Virus record (IMG/VR): IMGVR_UViG_3300013102_000032
Location: 1 to 64,000 of that record
Reading direction: 5' to 3' (one strand)
Source: a virus
Length of the DNA stretch: 64,000 nucleotides
Shown here: positions 29,292 to 60,138 of the stretch, one piece after another
Layout of the letters: each line of letters begins with the position of its first letter
Position numbering within the stretch: the first letter of the stretch is position 1
The notes under the pieces: model-generated
Databases searched by the model: none
The model's input: the letters and a program-made list of their open reading frames with translations, nothing else
Told to the model about the DNA's origin: nothing
Made by a program: the position numbers and the translations under genes

Positions 29292-29732
29292 TTATTGCTT
29301 AGATTTATATAAATCACTCGCCATCTTTGAAACTACTTTCATATCAGTCTTTCCTTTTAATTTACTTGACAATTCTTTAATAGCATCTCCGATTTTACCA
29401 TTAGATGCAATAATAGAATCAACAACCTGTTTTACAATTTCAGAAGCTTCTTCTAATGTAAGTTGCTTTGGCAAGTAAGAGAATAGCAATTCTTTCTCTG
29501 CGTTTTGGCTTTCTACGCTACGACCTACCGCAACATATGATTCGATCTCTTTATCTAATTCTTTGATACTCTTAGAGATAACAGATTCAACTTGTTCATT
29601 AGTCAAAGTGGATTTGTTTGCAATCTGTTCTTTCTCAATCTTAGCTAAAAGTAATTGCAATGTAGCACGTTTAGCCTTGTCTCCACTCTTCATAGCCTCA
29701 ATACGATTTTGTTTAATTTTTTCTAACAACAT
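29292..29732 (-). CDS. YqeY/GatB-like protein
   Basis: A 146-residue, nearly all-helical protein with the YqeY pattern: KSGDKAKRATLQLLLAKIEK near residue 16, SYLPKQLTLEEASEIVKQVV near residue 88, and KGKTDMKVVSKMASDL at the end. YqeY shares its fold with the C-terminal tRNA-binding domain of GatB. The role of phage copies is not known. It is the first gene after its promoter. Confidence 0.8.
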   Translation of the reverse strand: MLLEKIKQNRIEAMKSGDKAKRATLQLLLAKIEKEQIANKSTLTNEQVESVISKSIKELDKEIESYVAVGRSVESQNAEKELLFSYLPKQLTLEEASEIVKQVVDSIIASNGKIGDAIKELSSKLKGKTDMKVVSKMASDLYKSKQ

Positions 29733-29763: not shown

Positions 29764-29792
29764 AGTATATCATTATTTTTTATGTTTGTCAA
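29764..29792 (-). promoter_or_regulatory. Early promoter for the yqeY-thyA-folA-clpP unit
   Basis: Minus strand: TTGACA (29792-29787), 17-base spacer ending TGA, TATACT (29769-29764). Confidence 0.9.
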
Positions 29793-30224: not shown

Positions 30225-30458
30225 TTATTTAATCTTTTTACCATCTTTAAATCGTTGGATGTTGCTAGGTTTTTCTAGGGTAGCCATATGTTGTACAATC
30301 TTTACTTTAAGCAACATTAACTCATCGGTTTCTTTGTCTTTATTAATATAAAGACTAGGGTGACGGTCTTTCATCTTATAGTTTAATGAAATGCTACCGT
30401 CAATTAAGTCTCTGAGAGTCTCTAGTTCATAAAATGTAAAACTGTTTAAGTCTATCAT
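30225..30458 (-). CDS. Hypothetical protein downstream of the Nampt-like gene
   Basis: A 77-residue charged protein starting at ATG 30458, supported by AGAGGTGG five bases upstream; a longer frame would overlap the preceding gene without a better site. It is mainly helical (FYELETLRDLIDGSISLNYK). No family is recognised. It is the last gene of the Prs-like/Nampt-like unit. Confidence 0.6.
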   Translation of the reverse strand: MIDLNSFTFYELETLRDLIDGSISLNYKMKDRHPSLYINKDKETDELMLLKVKIVQHMATLEKPSNIQRFKDGKKIK

Positions 30459-30477: not shown

Positions 30478-31989
30478 TTATCCGTGTAGGATTTGTCGAA
30501 TCTCAGCAAGCGATTGGTCACGCTTTAACTCACCATCTTCAAATACTGTTTCAAGAAGATTAACAAACGATTTCTCCAATTTTGCTTCTGATTCTTTAGT
30601 AAGACCATCTTGGAAGACAATATTAGCACCTGTAGTCTTGGTGACAAATACTCGCCCACGCTGACTACGCTTAGTGCCATCATCAGTCTTAGGGTCTTTA
30701 AACAGTAATTTCTCTTCGCCATTTACCTGTGTCCATGTAGCTTTGATCGCCTGTCCCCAAGTATCTCTAGTTACGTATTGGTAAGTATAACTTCCGATAC
30801 CTAGTACAATATTGGTTGATGCAAATCCTTTAGCTTCTAATCTACTCATAATTGTTTCAGCACGCTCTAGAGTAATAGAATCTCCATAGATTGCACCAAT
30901 ATGAGGGTCTAGTAATTTATATCCTTTATCAGTGATTATACCACCAAAGATATCCCACAATGCTTCAATCAAACCTTTTCTTTCTAATTCAGTTTCAGCA
31001 TTTGGACTACCGCAAATGATATCCTCTGGTGTTCCACTATCTGGTCGAATAACAATTCGTCCATCACGATTCATAATTTCATTTTTAAGTCGTGGAAGGG
31101 TTTCTCCGATTACTTTCCAGAAGTCATAAGTATCGGATACGATAGATAAGAATCCGCTTGGCACTCTATTTAAAAGATGTTTATAAGCATCATACTCATC
31201 TCGCTCGCCATCCGCAAGAGTTAATGAAGACATGATAGAATGCTCTGTAGCAACAATACTAACGCCTACAATTTCTTTCTCAACATCTGCATTGTAATAG
31301 TTTTCAAGATAAGAAATAGAAGGAATGCTATCAGTACCATAAGATGATAATAAGTGACCTGCTCCACTAGACATTGCAGACTCTAAAGAAGACATTCCAC
31401 GCATACTGAAATCATGTGCTTGAAACTCTACTCCATCTGTATTACCAACTGTTTTCATAGCATACTCATTTAATATTTTACGATATTGATATGCAGTAGT
31501 GGCAGATGTAATCGGCAACCAAACCTCGGTAGAAATTAAAGTCTCTAAATAGTTTGTAAGCCAGAAAAAGTTATTATGAGTATTTTCGATTGTTAATACA
31601 GGCACTTTGACTGGTGAAAGAGTTCCCTCTTTTAAAGCTTTGAGTCGGATAGGTAAATATCCTAAATCATGCAATTCAGCAATATGAGAAGCATCTGGAT
31701 TCTCTACTCCTAAAGCATACTTGATAATTCGTACATACTCAGCGATCACATCCGCTTTTGGTCTACTAAAGAAGTATTCGTTGAAGTAGTTGATTAAATA
31801 TTTCTTAACGAATCCTTGAATACCAAATACCACAACTTTATTTGCAATTGGGAAGTATTTATTACTTCGTGGTGTTAGTGTACTATAAATTCGTTCTGTT
31901 CCATTGGGGTATAAATCCTTATGTCCGACCTTATAGAAATCGCAGAGTAATGTTGGTGGTACTAAGAATTTTTCTGTTGTTTTTTTCAT
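30478..31989 (-). CDS. Nampt-like phosphoribosyltransferase, candidate NARP1 Namat
   Basis: A 503-residue protein of the nicotinamide phosphoribosyltransferase (NadV) family. Key features: TLLCDFYKVGHKDLYPNGT near residue 13, DFSMRG at 193-198, catalytic-type H250 in VATEHSIMSS, and RPDSG at 315-319. Classical members make NMN from nicotinamide and PRPP. In the phage NARP1 pathway the homologous Namat instead joins nicotinamide to ADPR-pyrophosphate to give NAD+. The neighbouring Prs-like gene, and the lack of any NMN adenylyltransferase in view, favour the NARP1 reading; sequence alone cannot settle it. Confidence 0.9.
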   Translation of the reverse strand: MKKTTEKFLVPPTLLCDFYKVGHKDLYPNGTERIYSTLTPRSNKYFPIANKVVVFGIQGFVKKYLINYFNEYFFSRPKADVIAEYVRIIKYALGVENPDASHIAELHDLGYLPIRLKALKEGTLSPVKVPVLTIENTHNNFFWLTNYLETLISTEVWLPITSATTAYQYRKILNEYAMKTVGNTDGVEFQAHDFSMRGMSSLESAMSSGAGHLLSSYGTDSIPSISYLENYYNADVEKEIVGVSIVATEHSIMSSLTLADGERDEYDAYKHLLNRVPSGFLSIVSDTYDFWKVIGETLPRLKNEIMNRDGRIVIRPDSGTPEDIICGSPNAETELERKGLIEALWDIFGGIITDKGYKLLDPHIGAIYGDSITLERAETIMSRLEAKGFASTNIVLGIGSYTYQYVTRDTWGQAIKATWTQVNGEEKLLFKDPKTDDGTKRSQRGRVFVTKTTGANIVFQDGLTKESEAKLEKSFVNLLETVFEDGELKRDQSLAEIRQILHG

Positions 31990-32035
31990 ATTTGTAATCT
32001 CCCTTTTGTTTGTTTTTAGTTTTTATAATTTTATA

Positions 32036-32878
32036 TTATCCGTTTAATACTTCTTCGATATTATAGATTTGTAATTGCTCTTTAAATTTAGCATTCTCCC
32101 AATTTCCTTGCTCTGTTAAAATCGTGTCTGTTGTGAATACTTTATCAACATGGTCAAATAGCTCACCTTTGAAGATACTGTTTTCAGCATGTGCCACTAG
32201 TAAATAGATTTTCTCAAAACCTTCCGCACGTAAGCGTTTAGCACTATGTACAAAAGTTCCTCCATAAGACGATAAATCATCAACAATTATAGCAGTTTTT
32301 CCTTGCTTGTCTTTGTTTCCAATTAAATCTAATCCTTGGATTTCACCTGTTTTAAAATCTCTTACCTTATGACCAATTAAAACATTGTCTGTCTTCATAT
32401 TTTTATACCTCCGTGATGCACCTAAATCTGGAAACATGATATAATCTTTCTCTATATCAAATCCAACCTCTTCCATCACTTTAGGCAATAAGTCAAAGTT
32501 GATAAATTTAGATTCAACGTTATTTAGTAAAGCAGGAGTAACGTCAGAATGAGGTTCAATAACTACGACCTTACTAAAATTCATTTCGTTAATGAAATTA
32601 GACACATACTTTAACGTAAACGGAGATCCCTCTTCACTTCTATCCATTCGACTATAAGGCATGTAATAGATTGTCAGTTTAACTGCATCTATTCCAAAGA
32701 ATGAATCTAGATAATTTTTTACAAACCGTAGTTTAATCAAATCTGAATCGTCTTCGAATTTGAAATGTATCTTTGGAAACATTAGCGGAATACCTTTTTC
32801 AATACTGTCATGTACTAATTTTGTTTCTCCGTTTGGAAATTTCTCGAATACAACTTCTTTACCGTTTACTTTAATCAT
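32036..32878 (-). CDS. Prs-like pyrophosphokinase, candidate NARP1 Adps
   Basis: A 280-residue protein with the ribose-phosphate pyrophosphokinase fold: KFPNGET at 13-19, a Y-M-P-Y-S-R-M-D-R loop at 72-80 (YARQDR in Prs), H110, PDLGASRR at 150-157, and PRPP loop VDDLSSYGGT at 199-208. It is shorter than bacterial Prs (about 315). Prs makes PRPP; the related phage Adps instead makes ADPR-pyrophosphate from ADP-ribose. It lies 46 bases upstream of the Nampt-like gene in one unit. Its start overlaps the upstream membrane protein gene by eight bases. Confidence 0.85.
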   Translation of the reverse strand: MIKVNGKEVVFEKFPNGETKLVHDSIEKGIPLMFPKIHFKFEDDSDLIKLRFVKNYLDSFFGIDAVKLTIYYMPYSRMDRSEEGSPFTLKYVSNFINEMNFSKVVVIEPHSDVTPALLNNVESKFINFDLLPKVMEEVGFDIEKDYIMFPDLGASRRYKNMKTDNVLIGHKVRDFKTGEIQGLDLIGNKDKQGKTAIIVDDLSSYGGTFVHSAKRLRAEGFEKIYLLVAHAENSIFKGELFDHVDKVFTTDTILTEQGNWENAKFKEQLQIYNIEEVLNG

Positions 32879-33092
32879 TTGTCTTACCTCCGTCTTTTAA
32901 TTTATTCCCCACTGATATCAAAGCCCACGATAATAAAACTATAATAATACTACTAGTAATCATCGTTAGTATTAATGGTGTAAGCATTCCTGCAATTGCA
33001 AATATTAAAATTTCTAAAGCATATATAAAAGCTAAAGTTGGATAGAAGTGCTTTGAATTAATGACCTTATAAAGTTTTTTAATAAATTTCAT
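32871..33092 (-). CDS. Two-helix membrane protein in the NAD-salvage unit
   Basis: A 73-residue protein with two membrane segments (residues of about 17-36 and 38-60). I use ATG 33092, nine bases after AGGAG; the ATG at 33101 directly abuts that site. It is the promoter-proximal gene of the Prs-like/Nampt-like unit. A link to NAD metabolism is by context only. Confidence 0.6.
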   Translation of the reverse strand: MKFIKKLYKVINSKHFYPTLAFIYALEILIFAIAGMLTPLILTMITSSIIIVLLSWALISVGNKLKDGGKTND

Positions 33093-33119: not shown

Positions 33120-33148
33120 AGTATATCATTATATTTTGTTTTTGTCAA
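33120..33148 (-). promoter_or_regulatory. Early promoter for the NAD-salvage unit
   Basis: Minus strand: TTGACA (33148-33143), 17-base spacer ending TGA, TATACT (33125-33120). Confidence 0.9.
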
Positions 33149-34421: not shown

Positions 34422-34901
34422 CTATTTTAAAAATAGTCTCTTTATTAAATTTAAGTCTTTATTTAATTCGCTTCTAATTCTAGTCAGTCTTCCGCAAAAT
34501 TCACTATTAGTTAATACAGTTTTACTAGGGTCTTTCTTGCCCATTGAATGCGTTAGAGTTGCTTTGCCTGTGGCTAATAGAGCTTTGCAAAACTTATCGT
34601 TCTTAGCCAGTCGATCAAACGCTTTATCTAAGAGTTCTTGATAACGATCACTGTGACGGTCAATTTCTTCGCCCTTCCAGTATAATGTCTGAGTACGATA
34701 CCAATTCTTTTTCTTGCCTTTAAACTTGGCTTGCTTGCCAACCAACGTGCAAACGTGTATTTGCATTTCTGGATTAGAATATTTTAATGATTGCAAAAAA
34801 CCTTCCATTGAAGCACATTGAACTCCATCAATCTCAAAATTATGAGGTGAAAAGTTGCTAAGTGCTGATTCTGGATATCCATTACCGCTACCTATGTCCA
34901 T
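34422..34901 (-). CDS. NADAR-family N-glycosidase-like protein
   Basis: A 159-residue protein of the NADAR/YbiA (DUF1768) type. Diagnostic patterns: SALSNFSPHNFEIDG near residue 12, SMEGFLQSLKYSN with E33, KKNWYRTQTLYWKG, AFDRLAKNDKF and LLATGKATLTHSMG. Family members hydrolyse N-glycosidic bonds; some remove ADP-ribose from DNA guanine and counter DarT-type defence, others act on riboflavin intermediates. ATG 34901 follows AAAGGAGAG, so I reject the ATG at 34925, which lies upstream of that site. It lies 1.5 kb from the Prs-like/Nampt-like unit. Confidence 0.8.
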   Translation of the reverse strand: MDIGSGNGYPESALSNFSPHNFEIDGVQCASMEGFLQSLKYSNPEMQIHVCTLVGKQAKFKGKKKNWYRTQTLYWKGEEIDRHSDRYQELLDKAFDRLAKNDKFCKALLATGKATLTHSMGKKDPSKTVLTNSEFCGRLTRIRSELNKDLNLIKRLFLK

Positions 34902-34921
34902 ATTTATCTCTCCTTTATAGT

Positions 34922-35221
34922 TCATCCTTTTAATGATTTTAAGAAATCTATGTCATCCTCTATCTTTTTTAACTCTGATTTTTTCAAAGTCAATTCTTCG
35001 TCTAATTTTTTTAATCTATCAAATTCAAGAGTCCATCTCCAAACGTCATTTTTTATATAACGCCTAATCATAACTCCTTTAAGCCATACTTGTAGGTATA
35101 AAACTTTATAAGGTAAATCGATATTAATATTAAAAGCAAACACTTTATCTTGCCCTGCATATAATGTATCTTGCTCTTTTTTGTCTATTTTTGTTCCGAT
35201 TACAACATATGTTTCTTCCAT
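34922..35221 (-). CDS. Hypothetical protein with C-terminal coiled coil
   Basis: A 99-residue protein: a beta-rich N-terminal half (TYVVIGTKIDKKEQDTLYAG) and a coiled coil over the last 35 residues (KKLDEELTLKKSELKKIEDD). ATG 35221 fits AGGTGA about ten bases upstream better than the GTG at 35230. No family is recognised. Confidence 0.55.
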   Translation of the reverse strand: MEETYVVIGTKIDKKEQDTLYAGQDKVFAFNINIDLPYKVLYLQVWLKGVMIRRYIKNDVWRWTLEFDRLKKLDEELTLKKSELKKIEDDIDFLKSLKG

Positions 35222-36468: not shown

Positions 36469-36486
36469 TTAAAATTAAGATTTTAT
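36469..36486 (-). repeat. Hairpin of the ATAAAA family, copy 6
   Basis: Plus-strand arms TTAAAA / TTTTAT (one base off the main form), loop TTAAGA. The TGA stop (36488-36486) of the HD gene touches the arm. Confidence 0.6.
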
Positions 36487-37154
36487 CAATGTGCAGGTAC
36501 GAATTTATTACGGTTTAACTCTTCTATTTCCGCTTTCAATCTAGCTACTTCTTCATAATGCTCTTTGATTTCCCATAAGTGAGGTTCAATTGTAGTCTTT
36601 GCTGAATTGAAATATCCTGCATATCGTGGATATCTAATTCTTCCTTCTTTGAATAATGGGATGAAATGCTTTTCAGTTTCCATAGCTTGTCTAAGCTTTT
36701 TCTCTGGCGTAGCATCTCGTAGCGTTCCGAAATTGTGCTTTCTGTCAGAAGTCTTCAATAATAAAGCTCTTACATCTAATAAAATAGGCTGTAGATAAGC
36801 TACCATATTCTCATCTATCTTATAGTCAATTCCTTCTTTTTTAGTAACCAAGTCCACCATAACTGCAACATTGCTATTAAATTTATCTTCAATCATTCGA
36901 TTAGTTACTCCGTAGATATCTTCTGGTGCATCGTGCAATAACATTCCAGTAAGAATATCTTGGTTTCTTATTCCATGATTGAATAAATCTTGCGTGGTGG
37001 CTACGAGATGATAGTAATAGTGAGTGCCGTTATGCCTTGAGAATCCTTTTTCCGTACACATCTCTTCTATCATCCAATCCAAAGCTCTTAGTGAATCATC
37101 ATACCCTAAATTAGATAATGACCTTTCTAAATGTCTAACTAAACTTTCACTCAT
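36486..37154 (-). CDS. RelA/SpoT-type HD phosphohydrolase (candidate alarmone hydrolase)
   Basis: A 222-residue HD-domain protein resembling the hydrolase half of RelA/SpoT proteins and MESH1: a His-rich helix (HYYYHLVATTQDLF near residue 45), then L-L-H74-D75-A-P-E-D, IEDKFNSNVAVMVDLVTKKE and K-T-S-D137-R-K-H-N. No synthetase, TGS or ACT domain is present. It may remove the 3' pyrophosphate of (p)ppGpp or a related nucleotide, damping host stringent response or alarmone-based defence. Substrate is inference. It is first after a perfect early promoter. Confidence 0.75.
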   Translation of the reverse strand: MSESLVRHLERSLSNLGYDDSLRALDWMIEEMCTEKGFSRHNGTHYYYHLVATTQDLFNHGIRNQDILTGMLLHDAPEDIYGVTNRMIEDKFNSNVAVMVDLVTKKEGIDYKIDENMVAYLQPILLDVRALLLKTSDRKHNFGTLRDATPEKKLRQAMETEKHFIPLFKEGRIRYPRYAGYFNSAKTTIEPHLWEIKEHYEEVARLKAEIEELNRNKFVPAH

Positions 37155-37184: not shown

Positions 37185-37213
37185 ATTATATCATTATTAA
37201 AAGCTTTTGTCAA
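37185..37213 (-). promoter_or_regulatory. Early promoter for the 37154-34111 unit
   Basis: Minus strand: TTGACA (37213-37208), 17-base spacer ending TGA, TATAAT (37190-37185); a perfect consensus. Confidence 0.92.
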
Positions 37214-37219
37214 CAGTTT

Positions 37220-37777
37220 TTAAATCTTTTCTAACATTTTAACATCTAATGTCTTTGGATGTAGATGGGTTATATTTCTCTGTCTTTTGACCGCATATTT
37301 TACAGTTCCCCAAGTGCCTCCATCTTTACCTTCATCCCATACTGCTATAACAAGCTTAGCATTGTCAACCATCCATTTGTCTCTCACATGCATACACCAA
37401 GGGGTATAAGGCTCGTCTGAAACATAATATACTAAGTCTGCTTGTTTTATTACTTTATGATAAACCTCTATATCGTTTTTATTCCATCTAGAATATTGCT
37501 CTGCACATGGAATGGCACAGACTAGCTTTATGTGAGGGTATTTTTCTTTTAACTTAAGTACAATCTGTGCAGACCAAATATCAACACCAATAGCCATGCC
37601 AGTTATAAACGTATCAATTCCTCTTCTTTCGATCTTATCAATGATTGTCTCTTTTAACTTCATAAGCATCTTAACATTTTCTGGATGGCGATAATCATAA
37701 CTAGGAAATTTATCTGGTCTATGTCCAGTGAAGCACAGAGTTTTATCGAAATTCATATCATAAACTGTATGTAGCAT
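37220..37777 (-). CDS. SLOG-domain (YpsA/DUF1273-like) protein
   Basis: A 185-residue Rossmann-like protein with the DUF1273 signature: CFTGHRPDKFPSYDY near residue 15, TFITGMAIGVDIWSAQIVL, VCAIPCAEQYSRWN, YVSDEPYTPWCMHVRDKWMV and DGGTWGTVKYAV. SLOG domains are predicted to bind or process nucleotide-derived ligands such as ADP-ribose compounds, and occur in nucleotide-signalling conflict systems. The gene ends a transcription unit and faces the NADAR/HD cluster. The activity is unknown. Confidence 0.75.
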   Translation of the reverse strand: MLHTVYDMNFDKTLCFTGHRPDKFPSYDYRHPENVKMLMKLKETIIDKIERRGIDTFITGMAIGVDIWSAQIVLKLKEKYPHIKLVCAIPCAEQYSRWNKNDIEVYHKVIKQADLVYYVSDEPYTPWCMHVRDKWMVDNAKLVIAVWDEGKDGGTWGTVKYAVKRQRNITHLHPKTLDVKMLEKI

Positions 37778-40146: not shown

Positions 40147-41145
40147 TTAGTGAGACAGAGTATCTGCCTCACGTAGAAATTCTAATTTATTGTAGAAATC
40201 TTCTCCTACACGTTCTTTTAGCTTTTCTCTATTTGCATTGTCGTCTAATAGATACATATGGAATTGGATAAGTATAGATACATCTTCGATGAATCTATCT
40301 TCAAAGTTCATTTGCTTCAAGAAGTTTACGGCAATTTGAGATCCAACACACTCATGACCAATGAATTGTGCATGTCTCATTTCTTCGCCCTTTCGACTAA
40401 TGAAAGTCTTGCAAAACTCCTTGCCGATATCATGTAGCAATGCAGTCCAAAGCATTAACTCTTTATCTTCGCCATCGTAGTTATCTAAAACATGTTTATA
40501 GACATAATAAATATGTCGGCTCACCGATAAGGTGTGCCATTTTGAATCTTGAGACAAATCGTAGATTTTAAAGAAGTCTTCAAAGTAGGAGGCTAGAAAC
40601 TTCATCAAATCATATCCTTCTCTACCTAGTAAAACCGCTACTCGAATCGCATCTGTAAACTGTTTTGGCAAATCGGTTTCAATAATCTCGTCTGTGTATT
40701 CGAAGATGATATTATCCCAACCCTCAGACTTAATTGGAATTTGCATAGTTTTATACATTCGCTCGATAACATCAACTGGCACTTTTCTATCTCGACCATC
40801 ATTACGAATAAGAATCTCTTCGTATGGAGTTGCAACGTAGATAGCAATCTTTTTTACTGACTTTGGAAGTTGCTTAAGCAATCCTTGTCTTTTCTTTCGT
40901 GAGATATTGGTAGCATCATAGATTACACTTCTACCATTCTTCAAAGATTCCTTAGTTCTAGTAGCCATAGTTGCAAATACTTCACCATTGATATCTTGTC
41001 TATTGACATCTCCTGTTAGCTCTTCTCTAATTGCATCGGAAGAGATGTAGTCGATATCATCTCTCCCTTTCATTAGATCTTCTGCAACAGTAGATTTACC
41101 ACTTCCTGCAATTCCTACTAGCATAATAAATTTTGATTCATTCAT
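40147..41145 (-). CDS. Polynucleotide kinase fused to an HD domain
   Basis: A 332-residue fusion. Residues of about 1-160 are a P-loop 5'-kinase (GIAGSGK17ST, SSDAIREELTGD, IYDATNISRKKR, RNDGRDRKVP). Residues of about 175-332 are an HD phosphohydrolase (SRHIYYVYKHVLD, LLHDIGKEF, FIGHECVGSQ). Such enzymes can add 5' phosphate and remove 2',3'-cyclic or 3' phosphates from broken RNA. The RNA ligase gene lies 10 bases upstream, so an RNA-repair pair is likely. Confidence 0.85.
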   Translation of the reverse strand: MNESKFIMLVGIAGSGKSTVAEDLMKGRDDIDYISSDAIREELTGDVNRQDINGEVFATMATRTKESLKNGRSVIYDATNISRKKRQGLLKQLPKSVKKIAIYVATPYEEILIRNDGRDRKVPVDVIERMYKTMQIPIKSEGWDNIIFEYTDEIIETDLPKQFTDAIRVAVLLGREGYDLMKFLASYFEDFFKIYDLSQDSKWHTLSVSRHIYYVYKHVLDNYDGEDKELMLWTALLHDIGKEFCKTFISRKGEEMRHAQFIGHECVGSQIAVNFLKQMNFEDRFIEDVSILIQFHMYLLDDNANREKLKERVGEDFYNKLEFLREADTLSH

Positions 41146-41155
41146 GTTATCACTC

Positions 41156-42427
41156 CTATTCTGCAGATTCAGCTTCTTCCATATCTAAAACATCGTCAGA
41201 TTTAATAATTCCTTCTAGTACTTTGAAGTTGAAGTTCTTATGTTTCAAAGCTGTGAATTTTTCTTTTCCTTCGATTCGCACAATGATACCTTCACGTAAA
41301 TGTGTTTTGCCAATAGGGTCAACACCATCTTCATACTTAGCAACTCGTTCTAATAAATCGTTATTTGTTGTATATGTGAATCTGTCTAACTCTGGTGTAT
41401 ATTTAACTCCCATTTGCTCACAACGAATTTTTACTAAATCTGTCGGATACTCTACAACATATCCATCTTCGTTAGTCATAGTCATTCGGTAAGCATAGAT
41501 GTCACTTTGTCCAACCGCACAACCATATGTGAATCGAGTTTTATCGCCATATTGTTTAATAAACTCTTTATCTCTAGTTTTCTTATTATCACATTCTGGC
41601 ATAATCAAACCGCCATCTTCTGTATATCCTACTACTTCATAGAAAATAGTTTCGCCTTTTTTCAATTTTCCTTCAAACAAATCGTGCCACTGTTTACGAA
41701 ATTGATTGCCACCATAAAATCCGCCATCAAAGCTCTCAAGATTTACTCTTCGAGTACCTGTGGCTAACTCCCACTTATTCTGTTTAGGTAACTTGATGCC
41801 AACTTTTTTCAACAAATCTCTTAATTTAGATGTCTCTTTTTTAATAGTATTAGTTGTACGCTGAGAAGTACCATGCATTTTTAAAGTAATTACACATTGG
41901 TCGCCTTCTTTAAATCTATTAGTATTGTAAGCTAGTTGTGCAGTATCAATGTGTTGCTCAAACAAAGGATACAAATTCTCTTTCTTTTTAGCATTACCCT
42001 TAGTGCTTACAGTACCACCTTTAGCTTTGCCTTTAGGTACGTATTTCTCACAGATTAAGACACCGTTGATAGTAGAGATATTATCTCCTTCTTTTAACTT
42101 TGTAACATCTGTAAATTTAGAAAGGCTATTTACTGATAAAAATAAACCATCAGATTTTTCTCCACGCAATTTAAGACTAGTAATATGACGCTTTTCTGGA
42201 TCTAAATATCCACCTTCATTACTTCCGCTAATACGTACTAAGTTGTTCTCTGTTGCAAATTCTACACTCAACTTTCCGTCAGTTGGGAAGTACACTCCTA
42301 AATCTCCAACCTTAACATCTAATCCAACGATAACATCGTTCCCAAATAATGTAGCAACTTGTAATCGGTCTGCGTTAGAATGCTTTCTCAATTCTTTAAC
42401 TGTTGTAACATATCCACAATAACTCAT
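41156..42427 (-). CDS. RNA ligase with N-terminal OB domain (Rnl5/DraRnl-like)
   Basis: A 423-residue ligase. Residues of about 1-130 look like an OB-fold (TVKELRKHSNADRLQVATLF, then GLDVKVGDLGVYFPTDG) and the core carries the nucleotidyl motif L-K183-M-H-G-T-S. Later motifs are FYEVVGYTEDG and LREGIIVRIEG with FTALKHKNFNFK. The order resembles Deinococcus-type RNA ligase. It seals 3'-OH/5'-P nicks in RNA and probably works with the adjacent PNK-HD enzyme to repair tRNA cut by host defence nucleases. Confidence 0.85.
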   Translation of the reverse strand: MSYCGYVTTVKELRKHSNADRLQVATLFGNDVIVGLDVKVGDLGVYFPTDGKLSVEFATENNLVRISGSNEGGYLDPEKRHITSLKLRGEKSDGLFLSVNSLSKFTDVTKLKEGDNISTINGVLICEKYVPKGKAKGGTVSTKGNAKKKENLYPLFEQHIDTAQLAYNTNRFKEGDQCVITLKMHGTSQRTTNTIKKETSKLRDLLKKVGIKLPKQNKWELATGTRRVNLESFDGGFYGGNQFRKQWHDLFEGKLKKGETIFYEVVGYTEDGGLIMPECDNKKTRDKEFIKQYGDKTRFTYGCAVGQSDIYAYRMTMTNEDGYVVEYPTDLVKIRCEQMGVKYTPELDRFTYTTNNDLLERVAKYEDGVDPIGKTHLREGIIVRIEGKEKFTALKHKNFNFKVLEGIIKSDDVLDMEEAESAE

Positions 42428-42509: not shown

Positions 42510-43319
42510 TTATTTTATTAATTTTGATAAATCTAATCTTCCTTTAATCATTTCTTTAATCTCATCATTAGATAATTCTATACCTTTTTTTCTGTAATAA
42601 GAGATTAATAACGCTATGCTACCTGCTACCAAAGGCGATGCCATACTTGTGCCATTCATAATAGCGTATTTACCATCTTTATACGTACTTAATACTTCTA
42701 CAGATGGAGCTAGTACATCATATCCATAGTTAGAGAAATCCGCAACATTACCATCTAGGTCTAAGCCACCAACAGATATTACTTCATTCATAGAAGCAGG
42801 ATATCTAGAAGGAGAATTTATGTCATTGCCAACCGCACAAACTATAGTAACACCTGCCTCATAAGCTTCTATTATTCTCTGTATTAATATCTGAGGGATA
42901 TAATGTTGCACTCCTAGACTAATAGATAATACATCTGCTTTTAGATTAATCGCATGAGTGATGCCATCCATAACATTGCTAATACTACCATTTCCATCTT
43001 TGTCTAGCACTTTTATAGCATGTAGTTTAGCCATCGGTGCAACACCTGTACGCTTGCCAACTAACAATCCTGCAACATGAGTTCCATGACCAAGCTCGTC
43101 AGATACGTCAAGGCTCTTTTCTATCATATTGAATCTACTAATAACTCTATCGCTAATGTCTTTGTGATTTACATCTACACCTGTATCCATTGTTACTATT
43201 GTAACGCCTTCGCCCTTTGTTTTACTATGAGCTTTACTAACATTTATAAAGTCTAATGCCCAACTATTTTGATCCTTTTTTAATCTGTCCAATACTTCAA
43301 CCCTGTTTAAGTCTCTCAT
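42510..43319 (-). CDS. Intracellular subtilisin-like serine protease (S8)
   Basis: A 269-residue subtilase with a complete triad: D45 (TMDTGVD), H78 (GHGTHVAG) and S225 (NGTSMASPLVAG), plus oxyanion N165 (AVGND). There is no signal peptide; a short N-terminal segment of about 25 residues precedes the core, as in Bacillus intracellular subtilisins. It should act in the cytoplasm on host or phage proteins. The start overlaps the upstream stop by four bases. Confidence 0.92.
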   Translation of the reverse strand: MRDLNRVEVLDRLKKDQNSWALDFINVSKAHSKTKGEGVTIVTMDTGVDVNHKDISDRVISRFNMIEKSLDVSDELGHGTHVAGLLVGKRTGVAPMAKLHAIKVLDKDGNGSISNVMDGITHAINLKADVLSISLGVQHYIPQILIQRIIEAYEAGVTIVCAVGNDINSPSRYPASMNEVISVGGLDLDGNVADFSNYGYDVLAPSVEVLSTYKDGKYAIMNGTSMASPLVAGSIALLISYYRKKGIELSNDEIKEMIKGRLDLSKLIK

Positions 43320-58180: not shown

Positions 58181-58209
58181 AGTATACCATTATATTATAC
58201 ACTTGTCAA
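58181..58209 (-). promoter_or_regulatory. Early promoter for topoisomerase B
   Basis: Minus strand: TTGACA (58209-58204), 17-base spacer ending TGG, TATACT (58186-58181). The -35 overlaps the end of the upstream nucleotidyltransferase gene. Confidence 0.88.
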
Positions 58210-58932
58210 CATCTTTCTCTTAATGAGTCTCATGATGCTATTTTCAATCGTTTCTTTTAATTCAAGATTCAACGATTGTTCTCCATACTTCTTGCCTAAC
58301 GGTAGGAATGTATGTTCATAGTAATCTTTAGCAAGTTCTTCATATTCACCTCTAGTAAGCTCTCCGTTTCTAATCGCAGACATAAATCTTAATTCGCTAC
58401 CAAAGTATCTAATGCTACCTTCAAAGTCTTCAAAATTAGTCGATTCAAATTTCACTATAGTCTTCATCGATCTAAAAGCATGAAGGGCTTGTTTAGTATC
58501 ATATCCATACTTGTCTACTAGATGTTGAGTTCCCTCTGTACCTTTGCCAATGGCATTAAATTTGTTAAAATACATTCCCTTACACGCATTGAATAGGTGT
58601 GGTAGGTTCATCTTATATATATCCTTTTTTAATCTAACAAGATTGAGAATTTCAATGTTGCCACTAGGGATATACAAATCATCAGAAGCTAATACTTCTA
58701 GGTAGTTAATATTCGCCTTGAAAAACAAATCACTTAACTTTCGAATGTCATGAATATCGTTATCTTCTGTTGGTGTTATAATTGACTTAGCATACCTTTG
58801 TCCCAAGTATAATTCCTCAAACGTAGGAAGTACGAAAACCTTGTAATCCTTATCTGACTCTTCATTAGCTAAGTTGTAGTTATGTGAGCCAACCAATGCT
58901 TTTAACACTATATCTCGTCCGTTTATTTTCAT
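58195..58932 (-). CDS. Predicted nucleotidyltransferase (YcgL/COG3541-like)
   Basis: A 245-residue protein with the signature VGS16HNYNLANEES-D27-K-D29-Y-K-V-F-V-L-P, typical of phage nucleotidyltransferases of the YcgL-like group, and a helical C-terminus (MKTIVKFEST, ELTRGEYEEL). Family members occur widely in phages; their substrates are not established. It is a single-gene unit with its own promoter. Confidence 0.8.
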   Translation of the reverse strand: MKINGRDIVLKALVGSHNYNLANEESDKDYKVFVLPTFEELYLGQRYAKSIITPTEDNDIHDIRKLSDLFFKANINYLEVLASDDLYIPSGNIEILNLVRLKKDIYKMNLPHLFNACKGMYFNKFNAIGKGTEGTQHLVDKYGYDTKQALHAFRSMKTIVKFESTNFEDFEGSIRYFGSELRFMSAIRNGELTRGEYEELAKDYYEHTFLPLGKKYGEQSLNLELKETIENSIMRLIKRKMLTSV

Positions 58933-59235: not shown

Positions 59236-60138
59236 TTAATATCTGTCAATTAATTCAAAATTATCTAAATCTTCATACATAACTGTTTTATTAAGTCCTC
59301 CAGACACATAAGAATCACTATTTCTATACAGTATAGGCTCTAGCCAACAACCGCCTAATTTATTTATAAATCGTAAAGCATAATCTTTGCCTTCTATATT
59401 GAATATATCACCTTCTCTATAATCGATAGGTGTAACGGTTTTGAATCCTAAGTTTCTAGCTTCATTAATATCAAAGCTCTCATCTAAATGCATACAATAA
59501 ACCCTATCTCTAACGCTCTTATCTACTAATTCATCTAACTTTCTTAAAGATAGATGTACATTTCCTTCGTAATCAGCTTTGCAAGTATCTTGATAGAAAT
59601 AGTCATACCATCCACCTTTTAATAACTCTAAAACATTACTAGGAATCTCATTTGAATCTCCGCTATAATAACCATTATCGCCTTTAAAAGAAATGCCATA
59701 TCCATAACATGTAAGCTCTGGTACATGATTAACTTTTAGAGCACTTATTAATAAACGCTCTCCATTCATATCAATATTTGCAAAAACATCCATTCTTACA
59801 AAGTTATATAATTCACCTCTAACTCCCATTGCTTTTAATGTAATCATAACATTAACATCTTTCGGAGCTAAGACGGTTAAACATGGTTTCATTATTTCAC
59901 CCATAGAGTAATAACTGTAGAAGATCAAATCTCCCAATGAGCCTACGTGATCTGGATGAGTATGCGTAATCAGTACATAGATTTTTTCTACGCCATCTAA
60001 TAAGTTCATCTTTCTAATTCTGTCAAAAGTATTACTTCCGCAATCGATCAGAAATAATGTACTTCCATCTTTTATGTATGCACTATTATTTCCAAGCTCT
60101 GTATTAAACGCACTTCCATATCCTATAAACTTCAACAT
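59236..60138 (-). CDS. MBL-fold phosphodiesterase-like protein (tRNase Z/Apyc1-like)
   Basis: A 300-residue metallo-beta-lactamase fold protein. It begins KFIGYGSAFNTELGNNSAYI, as in the tRNase Z/phosphodiesterase branch, and carries T-H59-T-H61-P-D63-H64-V-G-S, a later H in KVNHVPELT, the S-G-D-S metal bridge and C-M-H-L-D. Phage Apyc1 proteins have this layout and hydrolyse cyclic nucleotides used by Pycsar defence. A tRNase or other phosphodiesterase role is an alternative. AAAGGAG precedes the ATG. Confidence 0.75.
   Translation of the reverse strand: MLKFIGYGSAFNTELGNNSAYIKDGSTLFLIDCGSNTFDRIRKMNLLDGVEKIYVLITHTHPDHVGSLGDLIFYSYYSMGEIMKPCLTVLAPKDVNVMITLKAMGVRGELYNFVRMDVFANIDMNGERLLISALKVNHVPELTCYGYGISFKGDNGYYSGDSNEIPSNVLELLKGGWYDYFYQDTCKADYEGNVHLSLRKLDELVDKSVRDRVYCMHLDESFDINEARNLGFKTVTPIDYREGDIFNIEGKDYALRFINKLGGCWLEPILYRNSDSYVSGGLNKTVMYEDLDNFELIDRY

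Follow-up and report, generated by a model that had tools for sequence, protein, structure and literature searches.

Two adjacent genes in this viral DNA encode proteins with the folds of Prs and Nampt, which raises the question of whether the pair makes NAD+ by way of PRPP and NMN or rebuilds it from the products of defence enzymes. Defence NADases of the TIR, SIR2 and SEFIR types release ADP-ribose and nicotinamide. These products are the two inputs of NARP1, a pathway reportedly published by Osterman et al. in 2024, so that the module lets a phage restore NAD+ after the defence has acted. We favour, with a probability of about 0.95, the reading that the pair is a NARP1 module composed of Adps and Namat. 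In the mechanism that we propose, the phage would transcribe an early unit holding both genes during infection. Adps would convert ADP-ribose and ATP into ADP-ribose pyrophosphate (ADPR-PP), which Namat would join to nicotinamide to give NAD+. These two steps would dispense with an NMN adenylyltransferase and replenish NAD+ after the cell's own defence had destroyed it.

Gene order and promoter of the unit

The window, that is the whole stretch of DNA analysed, covers bases 1-64000 of a virus record that is 72,608 bases long and has 33.8% G+C. The reading frames of Adps and Namat are both intact, lie on the minus strand and occupy the positions given in the original prediction. The features of the locus are as follows.

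33120..33148, minus strand: promoter (extended -10), TTGACA-N14-TGATATACT, heading the unit; 11/12 hexamer positions match
32871..33092, minus strand: small membrane protein of 73 aa with a hydrophobic stretch, from translation; first gene of the unit
32036..32878, minus strand: predicted Adps, Prs fold, 280 aa; from homology to the SPbetaL1 and P. foliorum pairs and from motifs
30478..31989, minus strand: predicted Namat, Nampt fold, 503 aa; from homology, clamp motif, contact residues and tree
30225..30458, minus strand: small protein, 77 aa when started at the ATG that follows AGAGGTGG; final gene ahead of the next promoter

The promoter motif of the unit, TTGACA-N14-TGNTATNNT at 33148-33120, recurs on the minus strand at 30221-30193. 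Since these two copies bracket the 73-aa protein, Adps, Namat and the 77-aa protein, the four genes plausibly form one transcription unit. The single early promoter of the original prediction is real as a motif: at no more than one mismatch, the pattern occurs at 20 sites in the window against a mean of 0.99 in shuffled sequence. Three of the 20 are not independent, because the pattern was defined from three sites already seen. Eighteen of the copies are on the minus strand (e.g., 33120-33148, 29764-29792 and 37185-37213), and most end in AATAATGATATAAT or a close variant. We infer that the unit is expressed early. Good ribosome-binding sites precede both the Adps and the Namat gene, which are separated by 46 bases, and the last 8 bases of the 73-aa gene are shared with the start of the Adps gene, so that translation of the two is probably coupled. 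Family searches with the longer reading frame of the small protein at 30225..30458 gave no match.

For the leading membrane protein, the ATG at 33092, about 9 nt after AGGAG, is a better start than that of a 76-aa reading frame, in agreement with the 73 residues first proposed. Its position at the head of the unit and its overlap with Adps might suggest a functional third component that, for example, imports or retains substrate. We consider this very unlikely, as searches of phages and viral contigs found no relatives, and 27 related loci contain no homologue beside Adps. We thus reject a conserved third NARP1 component and agree with the earlier view that the protein stands outside the known pathway; it is probably an incidental local passenger gene. 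At a single related locus (L020), Adps is directly preceded by a small protein that has a hydrophobic stretch but is unrelated in sequence to the 73-aa protein.

Sequence features of Namat and Adps

Namat matches the families NAPRTase (7.9e-36) and NF006629 (1e-163) and is 61.9% identical to the Namat of Bacillus phage SPbetaL1 (WIT26983.1). The motifs that had first suggested a Nampt-like protein, ATEHSIM with H250 and RPDSG, are present as quoted. Among solved structures it matches 9W5W and 9W5X best, at E about 1e-202, whereas human Nampt reaches only about 1e-67. The clamp residues of Namats grip the adenine of ADP-ribose pyrophosphate and are absent from PRPP-using Nampts. A published signature of Namats, GSX-Phi-X-Phi-X-Phi-TRD (Lan et al. 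2026, PMC12774641), appears in the window protein as GSYTYQYVTRD; true Nampts show a GG(G/A)LLQ-type sequence at this place in the alignment. Human Nampt and four phage proteins (L032, L033, L034 and L035) served as Nampt controls, and the clamp motif, sought by alignment, was absent from all of them.

According to the data statement, 9W5W and 9W5X are the NAD+ and nicotinamide complexes of SPbetaL1 Namat (PMC12774641). When the contacts are mapped by alignment, 17 of the 20 residues that touch NAD+ are identical in the window protein, the changes being A362 to S371, F392 to Y401, which keeps the aromatic ring, and R40 to K44. All seven nicotinamide contacts are identical and the catalytic H250 is kept, as are S195 and S400, where both human Nampt and its phage counterparts have Gly. 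The clamp itself corresponds to K44 (followed by Y45), Y401, Y405, T407 and D409; at its two aromatic positions, Nampts carry Gly/Ala and Lys/Gln/Ala. Clamp loops are described with either Arg, or Lys/Tyr and then a stacking residue ('Lys, then fourth residue stacks') (PMC12774641). K44-Y45 in TPRSNKYFP fits the Lys form, an assignment that rests on aligning a short variable loop in which a human Nampt Lys aligns too. The helix part of the clamp correspondence is independent of this loop.

Two side observations concern Namat genes more widely. Many of them, including close relatives, carry an in-frame insertion of ~75-97 residues right after RPDSG (L011, L019, L020, L021, L024, L026, L029 and L036), which the window copy lacks. 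In two viral contigs the gene is broken, by a split reading frame in L003 (3947-5484) and by a 1.4 kb interruption near the clamp motif in L004 (3953-6930); the Adps of L003 is in pieces as well.

Adps, for its part, matches ribP_PPkin (1.6e-26) and phrog_619 (5.7e-80) and is 55.9% identical to SPbetaL1 Adps (WIT26982.1). The Prs-like motifs PDLGASRR and VDDLSSYGGT of the original prediction occur as quoted, and the protein retains FPNGE, YMPYSRMDR and the catalytic-loop K-x-R. Against TIGR01251, the model of the Prs subfamily, it scores 92.9-94.8 bits, under the cut-off of 113 bits that a protein exceeded in all 14 control genomes. It departs from Prs in having HSDV in place of HAxQIQGFF and SSYGGT in place of DTxGT in the phosphate-binding loop, differences that are at most suggestive. 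A literature search for a residue signature of Adps specificity found none, and the ADP-ribose specificity of the window protein is predicted from its homology and partnership. In an Adps tree, three Prs rows split off at 100/100; within the remainder the tree is weak, with many long branches and an uncertain root.

In SPbetaL1 the two genes likewise stand in the order Adps then Namat, with the same catalytic residues and type of clamp. The SPbetaL1 clamp, however, uses Arg40 where the window protein has Lys44/Tyr45, its genes overlap by one base instead of being separated by 46, and of the two loci only that in the window has the small membrane gene before Adps. Given ADPR, ATP and nicotinamide, the purified SPbetaL1 enzymes form NAD+, and the pair shields cells from Kongming, an NADase defence (PMC12774641). 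A chromosomal pair from Paenibacillus foliorum, in a bacterium rather than a phage, is also adjacent and shows 50.8% identity for Adps and 62.1% for Namat; in the work of Lan et al. (2026, PMC12774641), the pair of this species made NAD+ and, in E. coli, neutralised the defence SPARSA. The closest named relatives are those of the large Bacillus phages FADO, vB_BsuS_PJN02, 2S-4 and vB_BcoS-136 (Namat 65-67%, Adps 58-63%). Phage vB_BcoS-136 shares the gene order of kinase and DNA ligase genes, then Adps-Namat, then thyA, dfrA and clpP, but its Namat has an extra insertion of ~75 residues after RPDSG that is missing from the window protein. DNA comparison of the whole region with known phages gave trivial matches only. 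Taken from these close relatives, with 56-62% identity and conserved specificity residues, the predicted chemistry of the window pair is strongly supported. The exact biological benefit of the pair is less strongly so.

Alternative routes and alternative benefits

That the pair is an ordinary PRPP synthetase and Nampt, whose NMN is turned into NAD+ by a host or unseen phage adenylyltransferase, is what general annotation models imply in naming a ribose-phosphate pyrophosphokinase and a nicotin(am)ate phosphoribosyltransferase, and Namat can indeed use PRPP as well in vitro (PMC12774641). The sub-threshold TIGR01251 score and the altered HAxQ and phosphate-binding loops of Adps speak against this, as do the clamp of Namat and its position in the tree. 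Alignment and tree-building, the check suggested at the outset, set Namat apart from Nampts: in a maximum-likelihood tree, 27 Adps-linked proteins separate from five Nampts at 100/100, a split found in 100% of bootstrap trees, and the window protein sits among Bacillus and Lysinibacillus phages. Nearly every protein with an adjoining Adps relative has the clamp motif, in looser form in a Listeria protein (GAYMYSFSLSRD); the solved protein 9KE8 has GAQTYQRNTRD. Adjacency is conserved: an Adps relative lies within the fetched flank at 19 of 21 viral loci found through Namat alone, and Namat is immediately downstream at 22 of 23 loci found through Adps alone in bacterial genomes, mostly of Paenibacillus and Cohnella.

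Salvage of the NARP2 or cellular type (Nampt plus NMN adenylyltransferase) shares the Nampt fold and catalytic core, but has neither the adenine clamp motif nor an Adps partner and requires the adenylyltransferase. The KVP40 region, examined as a control for this NMN route, lacked the wanted gene, and phages with an adjacent adenylyltransferase were therefore taken instead. In these, the Nampt adjoins that gene and not a Prs-like one: L032 and L033 lie beside an NMN adenylyltransferase and L035 beside a putative cytidyltransferase, which would place it on the same route. L034 has no Adps in its flank. The original prediction had also noted that no NMN adenylyltransferase was in view, and a PF01467 profile search of the entire 72,608-base contig, whose completeness is uncertain, returned no match, with 14/14 controls matched. 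This gives weak support to NARP1, because related phages measure about 160 kb and the contig may cover half of the genome; an adenylyltransferase could sit on the missing part. Together, the identity to two active pairs, the clamp motif and contacts, the tree and the conserved adjacency uphold NARP1 over plain PRPP/NMN synthesis, which we regard as extremely improbable.

A separate question is what the NARP1 enzymes are for. Their main benefit might be general NAD+ upkeep and recycling of ADP-ribose during infection, and chromosomal NARP1 pairs do occur in Paenibacillus and Cohnella, where their physiological role is unknown (PMC12774641). For the close homologue from SPbetaL1, however, counter-defence has been demonstrated (PMC12774641). 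The DNA ligase that the phage encodes gives matches to the ATP-dependent type and thus itself needs no NAD+, and further candidate counter-defence genes lie in the neighbourhood. We accordingly consider general supply unlikely as the main benefit, and infer that counter-defence is what selection has favoured.

Other candidate ADP-ribose genes and the place of NARP1 in phages

Further genes on the contig may act on ADP-ribose. At 34422-34925 (minus strand), some 1.3 kb away from the promoter of the NARP1 unit, lies a gene of the T4 gp30.3 family (Pfam Phage_30_3, 4.5e-56) with weak NADAR similarity (E 0.029), a possible ADP-ribose-processing enzyme. A clear NADAR-domain protein (E 2e-39) is encoded outside the window, at 71664-72158 of the contig (minus strand; L040/L041), so that the contig holds two NADAR-related proteins besides NARP1. 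The gene at 37220-37777 (minus strand) encodes a YpsA-type SLOG protein; SLOG proteins are proposed sensors or cleavers of ADP-ribose derivatives. A survey of NAD+/ADP-ribose systems in viruses (PMC9503650) predicted that NADAR and SLOG proteins process such derivatives, and a preprint describes a glycosidase within a NARP1 operon that feeds ADP-ribose to the pathway (PMC13232231). By analogy with RyDEP in mycobacteriophage DyoEdafos, NARP1 could be part of a wider programme in which the two NADAR-related proteins and the SLOG protein free ADP-ribose from signals or conjugates for Adps, an extension that we regard as distinctly unlikely. Searches of the contig for RyR-domain (RyDEP-like), Tad2-like and Nudix proteins detected none, although the RyR search was run without a positive control and its negative result carries little weight. 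PADLOC gave no match for ten proteins, as expected from models that cover defence and not counter-defence.

The minus strand carries other cargo. The protein at 59236-60138 has a metallo-beta-lactamase fold and resembles the anti-Pycsar protein Apyc1 (44.5 bits against a cut-off of 50), and that at 36486-37154 is an HD_4 protein, of a class that includes (p)ppGpp hydrolases, and a possible modifier of the stringent response. A kinase with an HD domain (40147-41145), an RNA-ligase-like protein (41156-42427) and an RlaP-like nucleotidyltransferase (58195-58932) make up a probable RNA-repair set. A YqeY-like protein (29292-29732) and a subtilase (42510-43319), unusual cargo for a phage, also belong to the minus-strand cluster.

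As far as sequence can tell, the pair displays every feature of NARP1 membership and is a case of the published system rather than a new one. NARP1 is common in phages: among 50,697 phage records, 1,938 have a Namat/Nampt-like gene and 1,401 an Adps/Prs-like one, so that another copy was to be expected, and the window pair is a further example of the pathway. The case provides one more phage contig with a well-supported NARP1 and brings no new principle. Across about 35 sampled proteins, the clamp motif separates Namat from Nampt almost without exception, and phage proteins annotated as 'nicotinamide phosphoribosyltransferase' can thus be re-read by sequence. Since rebuilding NAD+ answers several NADase defences generally, carriage of NARP1 helps to predict which defended hosts a phage can overcome.
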